A stretch of DNA of 64,000 bases from Phycisphaerae bacterium (lineage in GTDB: Bacteria; Planctomycetota; Phycisphaerae; UBA1845; PWPN01): contig JAAYDF010000244.1 in assembly GCA_012729395.1 (NCBI GenBank), positions 1 to 64,000 on the forward strand, given 5' to 3'. The translations under genes and the position numbers were made by a program. The notes under the pieces are model-generated. The model made no database searches. It saw only the letters and a list, made by a program, of their open reading frames with translations, and was not told the DNA's origin. Every line of letters starts with the position of its first letter. Position 1 is the first letter of the stretch. Positions 6,240 through 58,766 of this stretch are shown piece by piece.

Positions 6240-6394
6240 AAGGGGTGCATCCGAATTTCGGGGGCACTGGGTGGCACTGGTCTGTACCCAGACCAGTGGC
6301 TGTCCGCATTTGGCCACGGGTCGGAGTACCGACCCATGCCACCCTCGATACTTCGCCTTTGGCAACTTGCCACGGAACGGCGGATGCACCCCTT
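6240..6394 (+). repeat. palindromic MITE-like element, copy B (complete)
   Basis: The element is bounded by perfect 14-bp inverted repeats: AAGGGGTGCATCCG at 6240-6253 and its complement at 6381-6394. Inside are two further perfect hairpins: CACTGGTCTG/CAGACCAGTG (6275-6298) and GGGTCGG/CCGACCC (6318-6335). It encodes nothing. Copy A at 1-141 is in the opposite orientation. Terminal repeats and small size suggest a non-autonomous mobile element or a REP-type unit. No transposase is present in the window. Confidence 0.82.
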
Positions 6395-39340: not shown

Positions 39341-39800
39341 CCCAGAGCAACGAGCCCGGAGCGCCGCCAACGAGCCCGAAGCGCAAGCGCCGGGAGTAGA
39401 AGAGCGTCAGCGACGTGCGCCCCAACGAGCCCGGAGCGCGAGCGACGGGGCGGTGGAGCGTAAGCGACGTACACCAACGAGCCTGCAGTGCCAATAACCA
39501 GCCCGAAGCACAAGCGCCGGGAATGGAAGAGCGTCAGCGACGTGCGCCAACGAGCCCGGAGCGCGAGCGACGGGGCGGTGGAGCGTAAGCGACGTACACA
39601 CCCAAGCGTCCTATCGTTAATGCCGGAACTTGTACGTCGCTGACGCTCCGCGGTCCCATCGCTTGCGCTCGGGGCTCGTTGGGGCGCATCGCTTGCGCTC
39701 GGGGCTCGTTGGCGGCGCATCGCTTGCGCGCGGGGCTCGCTGGAACGCGTCTCTTACTCCGCAAGCTCGCTGGGGCGCGTTGCCGGTGTTGGGGGCTGGT
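39341..39800. repeat. cluster of planctomycete-type AACGAGCCCGRAGCGC repeats, direct and inverted
   Basis: Copies of AACGAGCCCGGAGCGCGAGC and GGAGCGTAAGCGACGTACA recur here. A unit of about 100 bp is tandemly duplicated (roughly 39374-39475 and 39503-39600). After 39630 the same words appear in inverted order (TGTACGTCGCTGACGCTCC, CTTGCGCTCGGGGCTCGTTGG three times), so the cluster can fold back on itself. Similar words are widely dispersed between genes of Rhodopirellula-type genomes. No open frame here is credible. Confidence 0.75.
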
Positions 39801-41048
39801 TTACCGCTTCTTGCGCGGCCCCTTGCGGCCGGACGTGGTCCGTTCGACCAGATTGGTGATCTTGGTCGGCAGGCTAAACAGCCGAATGAACCCCGTGGCG
39901 TCCGTCGAGTCGTACTCGTCGCCCATGGTGAAGCTCGCCAGATCGGGCATGTACAGCGTCTTGGGGCTCTTGGCCCCGACCACGCGGCAGTTGCCCTTGT
40001 AGAGCTTGACCCGGACCGTGCCGGTGACGTTCCGTGTCGTCGCGTTGAAGAAGGCATCGAGAGCCTGCCGCAATGGCGAGTACCACAGGCCGTAGTAGAC
40101 CAGCTCGGCGTAACGCAGGGCGACCATCTGCTTGTAGTGGAAGGTCTCGCGGTCGAGGCAGATGTTCTCCAGGGCCTCGCGGGCGGCATAGAGGATCGTG
40201 CCGGCCGGCGTCTCGTACACCCCGCGCGATTTCATGCCTACCAGTCGATTCTCGACCAGGTCGATTTGCCCGATCGCGTGTCGCCCGCCGAGGGCGTTGA
40301 GCTTGGCGATGATGCCTACGCCGTCCATACGCCGACCGTCGACCGCTACGGGCACGCCGGCCTCGAATTCGATCTCGACGTACGCACCGCGGTTGGGGGC
40401 CTTCTCGATCGGCACACTCAGCACCAGCATCTCATCCCGCGGCTCGTTCCAAGTCGATTCCAGCTCCGCCCCTTCGTGGCTCAGGTGCCACATGTTGCGG
40501 TCCCGCGAGTAGATCTTCTTCTTGGTCTGGTCGACGGGGATCTTGCGGGCCTTGGCGTACTCGATGGCCGCCTCGCGGCTACGCAGCTCGAATCGCGGAT
40601 CCTTCCACGGAGCGATGATCTTCAGCGTCGGGTCCAGGGCCATGTAGGTCACCTCGAACCGCACTTGGTCGTTGCCCTTGCCGGTCGCCCCGTGGGCCAC
40701 GGCGTCCGCTCCGTACTCGTGGGCGATCCGCACCTGCTCCTTGGCGATCAGCGGCCGGGCGATGGATGTGCCCAGAAGGTACTTGCCCTCGTAGACCGCG
40801 CCGCTCTTGAGCATCGGCCAGAGGAAGTCCTCGACCAGTTCCGCCCGCAGGTCGCCCACCACGCAGGCGCTCGCCCCGCTGGCCAGGGCTTTCTTCTTGA
40901 TCGACTTCAGCTCGTCACCCTGGCCCAGCTCGGCCGCGAAGGCGATCACCTCGCAGCCGTACGTCTCGCGGATCCACGGCAAAATCACGCTCGTGTCCAA
41001 CCCGCCGGAGTAAGCGAGCACAACTTTCTTGGGGGCTTTGCCTGCCAT
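39801..41048 (-). CDS. argG: argininosuccinate synthase
   Basis: About 415 residues, normal for ArgG. It condenses citrulline and aspartate with ATP in arginine synthesis. Landmarks are the PP-loop [19 protein letters not shown] (about 9-27), the citrulline/ATP region [20 protein letters not shown], and [19 protein letters not shown] chose the ATG at 41048 (MAGKAPKK) because GAGGA lies about ten bases upstream and the product starts at the PP-loop. The open frame extends 157 codons upstream with no family similarity. The 3' end runs straight into the repeat cluster. Confidence 0.96.
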
Positions 41049-42688: not shown

Positions 42689-44374
42689 TCAATGCTGCAG
42701 CCGTTCGAGCATGATGCTGCGGATCAGATCCGTCGGCGCGGGCTGGCCGGTCCATCGCTGGAATTGGGCCGCCGCCTGGCCGACGAACATGGCCACGCCG
42801 TCCACTGTGCGACAGTTATGGTCACGGGCTTGCTGAAGCAGACGCGTCTCCATGGGGTTGTAGATCGTCTCGAACACGACCGTTGTCGGCGGCAGGTCGA
42901 ACGTCGGCAGGGGGGTCTCGTCGGCGTTCGGCCACATGCCGATACTGGTGCATTGCACGACGACGTTGGCTTGGATGGCCGAGCGTGCTTCCCAAGGGAG
43001 GGCGGAGGCGCCGAACTCCGCGGCCAGTTGCTCCGCTTTGGCCAACGTGCGGTTGTAGATGGTGACCCGGCAGCCGGCGTCGATCAGGCCGGCCACGATG
43101 GCCCGGCTCGCGCCGCCGGCGCCCAACACCGCCGCCGACAAACCGCGCAGCCCCTCGGGCCCACGCTCCATGCCCGCACACAAAGCGTCCATCGCTCCGC
43201 GGTAGTCGGTGTTGTGCGCGGCCAAAGAGCCGCGGGCTTCAGCCCGCGCGGTCTTTCCGTGGTGTGTGGCGTTTTCATCGCGAGGGGCGCCGCGCGGGCT
43301 GAAGCCCGCGGCTCCTTGGTCATCCGGCGCGGGCTCGATCGCGAGTGTGTTTGCCGCCCCGATGCGGGCGGCAAGCGGCTCGATGTGGCCGGCGCGCTCG
43401 GCCACGTAGCGCAGCAGGTTCTGCTTGTGCGGGATGGTCACACTGCAGCCGGACAGGCCAAGCCACGGCCGGGCCAGGCAGCCGTCGATGAACGCCGCGA
43501 AGTCGGCATAGTCCGGCTCGACGCGAAGTGGCAGATACACGCCGTCATACCCGATCGCATCGAACGCGGCATTCATGATTGCCGGACTCATCGAGTGAGC
43601 CACCGGGCAGCCGATCACGCCGTACACCCTGGTGTCCGGCCGCAACGCATCCCAACGGTAGAGCGAGCGCATCTGCTTGATGGCAGGTTGCCCGGGGGCG
43701 GATTCCTTGCCCGTATCCAGGGCGGCAAAGGTCAGCAGCCCGCCCACCTTACCGGCCAGTACACGGGTGATCACACCCGCCTCGCCCATGGACAAACCGA
43801 TAGCGGGGCCGGTGCGAGCGGACTCCCGCAGGGCATCGAGCATACGCAGGGCATCAGTGATGCGGTTCGCCTTGCAGGCGAGTTTGACCACGTGGGCCGG
43901 CTCGTTCCGCAGCTCGGCGAAGATCGCATCGAGGTTGGCGGGCGTCTCCGTGAAGTTATGCTTCGAGAGGATGAGCCGGCAGCGCGGCCTCTCCGCACCG
44001 GTATCGACCCTGCAGACCCGCCCGATCGCCTGCCGGAGCTGGGCAGAGCGCTTCCACGCATGGTACTCGACGTCGATGTAGTCCGCGCCCGCCTCGCCGG
44101 CGGCCACCAGCAGAGCAATCCTTTGCGTTTCCTCGCCATGCCACTGCCCGCCCTCCTCGGCGATCCTGCATGTGGCGATCGTCTGCCCTCCGGCCTGGCG
44201 AGCCTGTTCGACCAGCCGGCACACCATGTGAGCGTCCGACCGCTCGAGGTAATCAAGCCGTAGCTCGATCATTCCCGCATTCGCTCGCTTGGCGGACTGG
44301 ATGTCGGCGAAGGCCTGATCCTCCGCTCGGGCCGTCACTGGAACGCAGAGCATGGTCCGCTTCTCACTCATCAT
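42689..44374 (-). CDS. aroDE: fused 3-dehydroquinate dehydratase / shikimate dehydrogenase
   Basis: A 561-residue two-domain shikimate-pathway enzyme. The type I AroD part (1-230) has MIELRLDYLERSD, catalytic His in LILSKHNFTETP and Schiff-base Lys in HVVKLACKANRITDAL. The AroE part (about 247-555) has GVIGCPVAHSMSPAIMNAAF, VTIPHKQ with the catalytic Lys, IGAANTL, NTDYRGAMDAL and the NADP loop AVLGAGGASRAI. Between NTL and NTD are 43 residues instead of about 10-12. The extra residues come from a 98-bp palindromic repeat (43222-43319) that keeps the frame open. AroD-AroE fusions occur in several phyla. Expression is probably separate from leuA, since another copy of the repeat lies between them. 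Confidence 0.93.
   Translation of the reverse strand: MMSEKRTMLCVPVTARAEDQAFADIQSAKRANAGMIELRLDYLERSDAHMVCRLVEQARQAGGQTIATCRIAEEGGQWHGEETQRIALLVAAGEAGADYIDVEYHAWKRSAQLRQAIGRVCRVDTGAERPRCRLILSKHNFTETPANLDAIFAELRNEPAHVVKLACKANRITDALRMLDALRESARTGPAIGLSMGEAGVITRVLAGKVGGLLTFAALDTGKESAPGQPAIKQMRSLYRWDALRPDTRVYGVIGCPVAHSMSPAIMNAAFDAIGYDGVYLPLRVEPDYADFAAFIDGCLARPWLGLSGCSVTIPHKQNLLRYVAERAGHIEPLAARIGAANTLAIEPAPDDQGAAGFSPRGAPRDENATHHGKTARAEARGSLAAHNTDYRGAMDALCAGMERGPEGLRGLSAAVLGAGGASRAIVAGLIDAGCRVTIYNRTLAKAEQLAAEFGASALPWEARSAIQANVVVQCTSIGMWPNADETPLPTFDLPPTTVVFETIYNPMETRLLQQARDHNCRTVDGVAMFVGQAAAQFQRWTGQPAPTDLIRSIMLERLQH
43222..43319. repeat. 98-bp palindromic element inserted inside aroDE
   Basis: GAGCCGCGGGCTTCAGCCCG (within 43227-43251) and its exact complement (43290-43314) are 25-bp arms separated by 38 bp. 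With the flanking CCAA/TTGG they extend to 30-bp arms with one mismatch. The same family occurs at 44388-44485 outside the gene. Each arm is itself nearly palindromic (GCGGGCTTCAGCCCGC). Confidence 0.85.
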
Positions 44375-44387
44375 GACTGATTCCAGA

Positions 44388-44485
44388 CAACGAGCCGCGG
44401 GCCTCAGCCCGAGCGGGGCTTATGCGTTGAGCAAACGTTCATTCCCATCCCGGCACTGCGCGGGCTGAAGCCCGCGGCTCGTTGG
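44388..44485. repeat. 98-bp palindromic element, intergenic copy
   Basis: CAACGAGCCGCGGGCCTCAG at the left and GGCTGAAGCCCGCGGCTCGT at the right mirror the element found within aroDE, and the total length is the same. The inner spacer differs. It lies between leuA and aroDE. A partial extra arm (CTCGCGGTCCGTTGG) follows. Confidence 0.8.
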
Positions 44486-54080: not shown

Positions 54081-54321
54081 CGAACCGCGACGCGGTTCCA
54101 GAGCACAGCCCGGGGTCGCGCAGCGCACCCCGGGATTTATGCCAACAGGCACAGACCAACCCCGAAGGGGTTGCATACGTGATGATGCTCGGGGGTAAAG
54201 AACGGTAAAAGGTTCGAGGCTACATATGAAACCCTTTCAGGGTGTGTTGTATCGCGGTTGGCCTCGTGCCCCAGGGTGCGCTGCGCGACCCTGGGCTGTG
54301 TTATCGAACGCCTTCGGCGTT
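54081..54321. repeat. cluster of about six short hairpins (planctomycete-type intergenic repeat)
   Basis: In order: GAACCGCG/CGCGGTTC (54082-54098), CCCGGGGT/ACCCCGGG (54109-54134), AACCCC-GAA-GGGGTT (54158-54172), ACCCT/AGGGT near 54231-54243, CCAGGGT/ACCCTGG (54271-54294), and AACGCC-TTC-GGCGTT (54307-54321). The outer members of the set mirror one another. The rest of the 53942-54477 gap shows no gene. Confidence 0.7.
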
Positions 54322-58654: not shown

Positions 58655-58766
58655 GGAAAAGGGTGTCAGGATGATTTTTCGGCGGTTGAACCAGGGGTTC
58701 AACCGCCGAAAAATCATCCTGACACCCTTTTTCCTCCGAAAAATCATCCTGACACCCTTTTTCCTC
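58655..58766. repeat. 79-bp near-perfect palindrome plus repeated arm
   Basis: Two 38-bp arms meet around AGG at 58693-58695: GGAAAAGGGTGTCAGGATGA... on the left and its complement on the right, differing by one T. The right arm's end (CGAAAAATCATCCTGACACC and T-rich tail) is repeated directly at 58737-58766. GGTGTCAGGA words of this sort are known from REP-like dispersed repeats. The cluster separates the plus-strand Tyr/Pro-rich gene from the minus-strand rpsD. Confidence 0.85.

Follow-up and report, generated by a model that had tools for sequence, protein, structure and literature searches.

The 98-bp palindrome located inside the aroDE gene of this Phycisphaerae bacterium is very probably a REPIN that was mobilised by a REP-associated tyrosine transposase (RAYT) of the HUH, Y1 type encoded in frame in purH, the copies that survive in genes being those that lie in frame and in tolerant loops. 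A REPIN would here consist of two REP hairpins in inverted orientation, non-autonomous and moved by such an enzyme. The cognate RAYT is the one inside purH, with identical REPs at both of its ends; copies of the REPIN would land in single-stranded DNA, and within genes only those combining a preserved reading frame with a tolerant loop would persist. The features concerned are listed in Table 1.

Table 1 Features of the aroDE palindrome and its surroundings (positions refer to the window, i.e., the whole 64,000-nt stretch of DNA that was analysed)
Feature	Position	Strand	Description
Left REP	43222..43252	+	31 nt; the REP next to the purH-borne RAYT in this genome has the identical sequence
Right REP (inverse)	43290..43319	-	One mismatch relative to the left arm
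REPIN	43222..43319	.	CCAANGAG-CCGCGGGCTTCAGCCCGCG-CGG ... inverse; ~38-nt spacer; aroDE codons ~352-385
aroDE	42689..44374	-	3-Dehydroquinate dehydratase I/shikimate dehydrogenase fusion, 561 aa, frame open across the insert
Second REPIN copy, same family	44387..44485	.	Shortly upstream of the aroDE start, with leuA on the other side

The palindrome separates the GAANTL block of shikimate dehydrogenase from the NTDYRG block, and domains were recognised on both sides of it using Pfam and NCBIfam (DHquinase I, SDH N-terminal, and SDH C-terminal). An earlier note on this DNA had described a 98-bp palindrome with 25-bp perfect arms and a reading frame that stays open through it, and both descriptions were confirmed: the 30-nt arms (43222-43251 and 43290-43319) show 97 % complementarity, with a single mismatch and perfect pairing of the 25 inner bases, and folding of the palindrome as DNA gave -45.7 kcal/mol against a shuffle mean of -23.4 (z -9.1), with none of 200 shuffles being as good. 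The gap of 43 residues between the two blocks was also found as described, but the expected 10-12 residues had to be adjusted to 10-18 in relatives of the same family and about 10-11 in most of the wider order. Likewise, the figure of about 32 extra residues was corrected to a net gain of ~25-33 in the AroDE loop; the whole 98 bp is not divisible by three, the conserved CAA...TTG unit (43223-43318) measures 96 bp, and the junctions are approximate. The peptide encoded by the insert is QGAAGFSPRGAP...KTARAEARGSL. The only AroE homologue found in the genome is aroDE itself, two further matches consisting of the REP-encoded peptide alone. Exposure of the loop was judged from homology, since the AlphaFold model of the AroE half, with a mean pLDDT of 43, was unusable for this purpose.

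As an RNA hairpin, the palindrome folds at -73.5 kcal/mol (z -9.5). A scan against Rfam returned no family at the gathering score; the matches seen (miRNA hairpins and the nadA riboswitch) were far under their gathering scores and were set aside as hairpin noise. The very stable RNA fold, together with the second REPIN copy directly upstream of aroDE, could point to a hairpin in the mRNA that regulates aroDE, for instance by delaying ribosomes as they pass from the AroD half to the AroE half, in which case the peptide would be incidental. This is unlikely, as copies are dispersed among unrelated genes, relatives do without the aroDE copy, and no Rfam family was recognised.

The site in aroE is empty in all 11 same-family relatives with an alignable aroDE; their loops are short, and none carries a long unrelated loop at this place, which was the comparison proposed in the earlier note. 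The closest relatives are only ~64 % identical in AroDE, a distance at which neither the ends of the element nor the absence of a target duplication can be fixed.

The second check proposed there, a search for the repeat elsewhere in the genome (5.74 Mb, 370 contigs, 99.6 % complete), revealed an abundant family that is also present inside other genes: 96 alignments were obtained at ~45 sites, and the palindromic core 16-mer has 45 exact copies, compared with 0 occurrences of a reversed-pattern control. From the aligned copies, the REP unit reads (C)CAANGAG-CCGCGGGCTTCAGCCCGCG-CGG(T) and is found singly or as inverted doublets, with mostly 65-66 nt between REP starts at many sites. Its conserved tag is CAANGAG (NGAG) and not GTAG. 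About half of the copies look intergenic. The unit is free of stop codons in five of its six frames, so that a REP can persist as a translated linker peptide.

One REP copy is also carried by a set of paralogous repeat-protein genes (L040, L041, L044, L046, L056, L064, L065, L069, and L076). In this family, the REP is translated as QGAAGFSPRGPSDGATAGIHGAGGIGGLLAVEA or near variants at most loci, and it seems to have been copied along with the gene.

Other palindromic sequences are present in the window. An array of another palindromic family (CCAACGAGCCCGGAGCGCGAGCGACGGG) occupies positions 39348-39803, and the same repeats flank a stand-alone Y1 transposase (G000:C199; L034). At 58657-58762, a 36-bp perfect palindrome is accompanied by a third half-copy (AAAAGGGTGTCAGGATGATTTTTCGGCGG), and near-identical AAAAGGGTGTCAGGATGATTTTTCGGCGG-type sequence brackets the Y1 gene G000:C260 (L029) as inverted repeats of 22 bp. 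Positions 1-140 and 6244-6383 form a 140-bp inverted repeat, 98 % complementary and 6.1 kb apart, which possibly represents the ends of a larger mobile element. Yet another hairpin family is represented by a 52-nt inverted repeat, 81 % complementary, at 54083-54321.

The genome encodes 11 Y1 transposases, and the REP of the aroDE palindrome flanks exactly one of them. This RAYT (G000:C317; L071/L107) is an in-frame part of an 844-aa ORF of which both ends are PurH. Two REPs are located on one side of it and one on the other, all with 0 mismatches, and the exact inverted repeat around it measures 31 nt and has the same sequence as the left arm in aroDE. Several of the other Y1 genes have palindromes of their own, and none were seen around the rest. 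The corresponding site in purH holds an ordinary short loop in nine relatives of the same family (slightly longer in G002) and a REP-like remnant in G010; it was unreadable across in two draft genomes, G004 and G012. Across 61 genomes, at least 17 REP copies were counted in 7 of the 10 with a RAYT of the same lineage (lineage A) and in 3 of the 51 without it (Fisher p 3e-5); G023, G024, and G027 have many REPs despite having no lineage-A RAYT. We infer from these observations that the purH-borne RAYT moved the REPIN.

The palindrome had initially been likened to the elements of Rickettsia. The part of that comparison concerning a mobile palindrome inserted in frame as added peptide holds, while the RPE label gives way to that of a REPIN with its RAYT, which fits better. 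A palindrome of the RPE type would belong to a family specialised for in-frame insertion and spread by some other route without a RAYT; it would have the same outcome, namely in-frame palindromes of ~30 residues in many unrelated enzymes, and some RPEs have been grouped with REPs (Di Nocera 2013; PMC3733652). Such an origin is nevertheless very improbable in a genome with a RAYT that has identical REPs, with REP number tracking the lineage-A RAYT across genomes and about half of the copies apparently lying between genes. The element is best explained as a REPIN (REP doublet) rather than as a Rickettsia RPE because the RAYT can be pointed out, as can its REPs, which are identical over 31 nt.

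The aroDE copy is not the only one in a reading frame. In this genome, in-frame REPs or REPINs were observed in IleRS, ValRS, UvrA, CarB (at two places), and an amidohydrolase, flanked by recognised domains. In NadC (L068), a REP is in frame close to the N-terminus, so the true start of this protein may be downstream. The candidate UvrA site L053:4792 was a chance match with four mismatches and was dropped from the in-frame list. When codon usage was scanned at 46 sites, none had same-strand coding on both sides in different frames; as the scan was partly trained on the same genes, it supports selection for frame rather than proving it. Taken together, the empty sites, the dispersed family, and the other in-frame copies support the reading that a mobile palindrome was inserted in frame as added peptide. 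An assembly error or a chance palindrome would be in keeping with the draft state of the source genome, with its 370 contigs, and with the position of some REP copies near contig ends. It is hardly credible for aroDE, where the copy lies deep within an 80-kb contig with its frame intact and, the nearest other copy being 83 % identical, is not a mis-joined duplicate; moreover, independent genomes have the same in-frame pattern.

In relatives of the same family, IleRS, ValRS, and CarB are without these doublets. The same loops differ in length among them and often hold other palindromes: IleRS carries this REP once in G001, a palindrome of the CCGGC..GCCGG family in G011, and another large palindrome in G009, and CarB of G008 contains the same REP as this genome. 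Such hypervariable loops, with different palindrome families in different genera, could mean that REPs were co-opted as loop-building material and that the added peptide is adaptive through loop diversification, and the AroE of G012, with its own REP insert nearby (of the different CCGGC..GCCGG-type family, ~15 residues downstream of the NTD motif), would agree with this. However, the REP peptide varies with the reading frame (GAAGFSPRG, EPRASARAV, SRGLQPARS), which suggests tolerance and not a selected sequence and makes an adaptive role improbable. AroDE, with its domains intact, presumably works with the insert.

RAYTs inside enzymes were found well beyond this genome when 114 genomes of the order were searched. 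Each of the 15 closest matches of lineage A, including the RAYT described here, belongs to an ORF of 424-1561 aa. With lineage B, which occupies the same loop of PurH in G047, 37 matches were obtained with E values no worse than ~1e-25, and all of their ORFs are 481-1647 aa long. Free RAYTs measure ~155-250 aa; outside the order, a sample of the phylum yielded 24 matches, of which 21 were in ORFs of at most 350 aa, the three long-ORF exceptions lying in two ValRS genes and one BREX-2 PglX. At least three RAYT lineages are in frame inside ORFs of PurH, IleRS, ValRS, AlaRS, LeuRS, and GcvP. PurH hosts 21 of these loci (7 of lineage A and 14 of lineage B) in the same loop, before KHTNACG; the other hosts recognised using Pfam and NCBIfam are IleRS (two recurrent positions), ValRS, AlaRS, LeuRS, GcvP, and MmeI. 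Lineage-A RAYTs in PurH, ValRS, and LeuRS are accompanied by REPs of the aroDE family or by variants in which the palindrome is preserved, and no such REPs were found with the MmeI- and MutS-linked ones. The MutS-linked RAYT (L177) was not counted as an intragenic case, as it sits upstream of the MutS domains. No intein or splicing (Hint) domain was detected in the RAYT-bearing ORFs at E 1e-3, and no group I or II intron was detected by Rfam at the gathering threshold in four RAYT-bearing loci; the insert in aroDE is therefore expected to be translated.

Some loci have unusual architectures. The AlaRS ORF at L175:1780-6837 (G025) is 1686 aa long and carries two Y1 transposase domains in frame. 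In the PurH loops of L155, L156, and L162, long tandem peptide repeats (such as DHRRDACATPGEE and AELRATESGD) adjoin the RAYT and are apparently expanded repeat-encoded sequence. The BREX-2 PglX methyltransferase ORF with an embedded Y1 transposase domain (L249:299-5140; G404, of the same phylum but outside the order) encodes 1614 aa.

In a tree of lineage-B RAYTs, the host enzyme or site changes 6 times (minimum 5; shuffled mean 12.2; none of 200 shuffles as low), and bacterial families are mixed, with 9 changes. In the tree of lineage-A and AlaRS RAYTs, the host changes 9 times (minimum 7; shuffled mean 22.9) and the family 16 times, five shuffles of the family labels giving 18-21. On these sequence trees, RAYTs sort by host enzyme and not by bacterial family. 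In a PurH tree from which the insert was omitted, the insert state changes at least 12 times; many branches are weak, and strict vertical inheritance of the purH inserts does not appear favoured. Site fidelity and patchy presence are characteristic of homing elements such as inteins. RAYTs of this order stand about an even chance of living in an intein-like manner without splicing: they would reside in frame in fixed loops of PurH, IleRS, ValRS, AlaRS, LeuRS, and GcvP, be transcribed and translated together with their hosts, move between genomes while keeping to their host site, and seed the loops of other enzymes with REPINs like that in aroDE. Old RAYT insertions followed by many losses and gene transfer may also account for the site-faithful, patchy pattern.

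REPs were named for being extragenic. Here, they are parts of core-enzyme ORFs, in which they would be translated, and the RAYTs serving them are embedded in essential genes. Expression of the host enzyme would then also express the transposase, and loss of the RAYT would have to preserve the frame. If true, this would let a transposon persist where the genome is compact, would make the loops of conserved enzymes vary in length, and would offer a ready system in which to study RAYT target choice. Many annotated core enzymes of the phylum may carry unrecognised transposase domains.

The anatomy of REPINs as inverted REP doublets was defined previously (PMC3116915). The system described here resembles known REPINs and RAYTs in its inverted doublet, its dispersed copies, and a Y1 HUH transposase that has these REPs on its flanks (PMC3116915, PMC8266576). 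REPs of SBW25 are nearly all extragenic and RAYT-linked REPs mostly carry a GTAG tag (PMC3116915, PMC8266576), whereas the present REPs have an NGAG tag, several of their copies are inside open frames, and the RAYT itself is in frame in purH. Intragenic REPs of the GTAG/CGTC type, including those of O. terrae, occur as in-frame monomers or dimers of 20-30 residues in genes that include uvrA and tRNA synthetases (PMC3733652). They share with the present ones the in-frame position of REP monomers or dimers within real genes; intragenic REPs are already known, and the aroDE insert, taken by itself, belongs with these. No mention was found in that paper of whole RAYT genes in host ORFs or of RAYTs recurrently occupying one protein loop, and a literature search of incomplete coverage gave no account of RAYTs inside essential-enzyme ORFs. 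What appears to be new is that the cognate RAYT resides within purH and that essential enzymes repeatedly house RAYTs, of which no earlier account was found.

With the Rickettsia RPEs, compared here by structure, the aroDE insert shares an in-frame palindrome that adds peptide to an ORF, function being suggested in our case by the intact domains; it differs from them in that a cognate RAYT and a REP doublet structure were identified. TnpA-Y1 transposases of class 3 are rare, occur mainly in Planctomycetes, and have a median length of 178 aa, an HuH motif of NHVH, W[TA], and REP-like flanks with a CnGA foot (PMC6006769). The lineage-A RAYT resembles this class, although its domain lies within enzyme ORFs of 844-1561 aa and the Y motif fits in part only. 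Inteins and IStrons are likewise mobile elements that are retained in conserved genes and are faithful to their insertion site; unlike these, the elements described here contain no detected splicing domain or group I intron and are apparently simply translated as part of their host enzymes.
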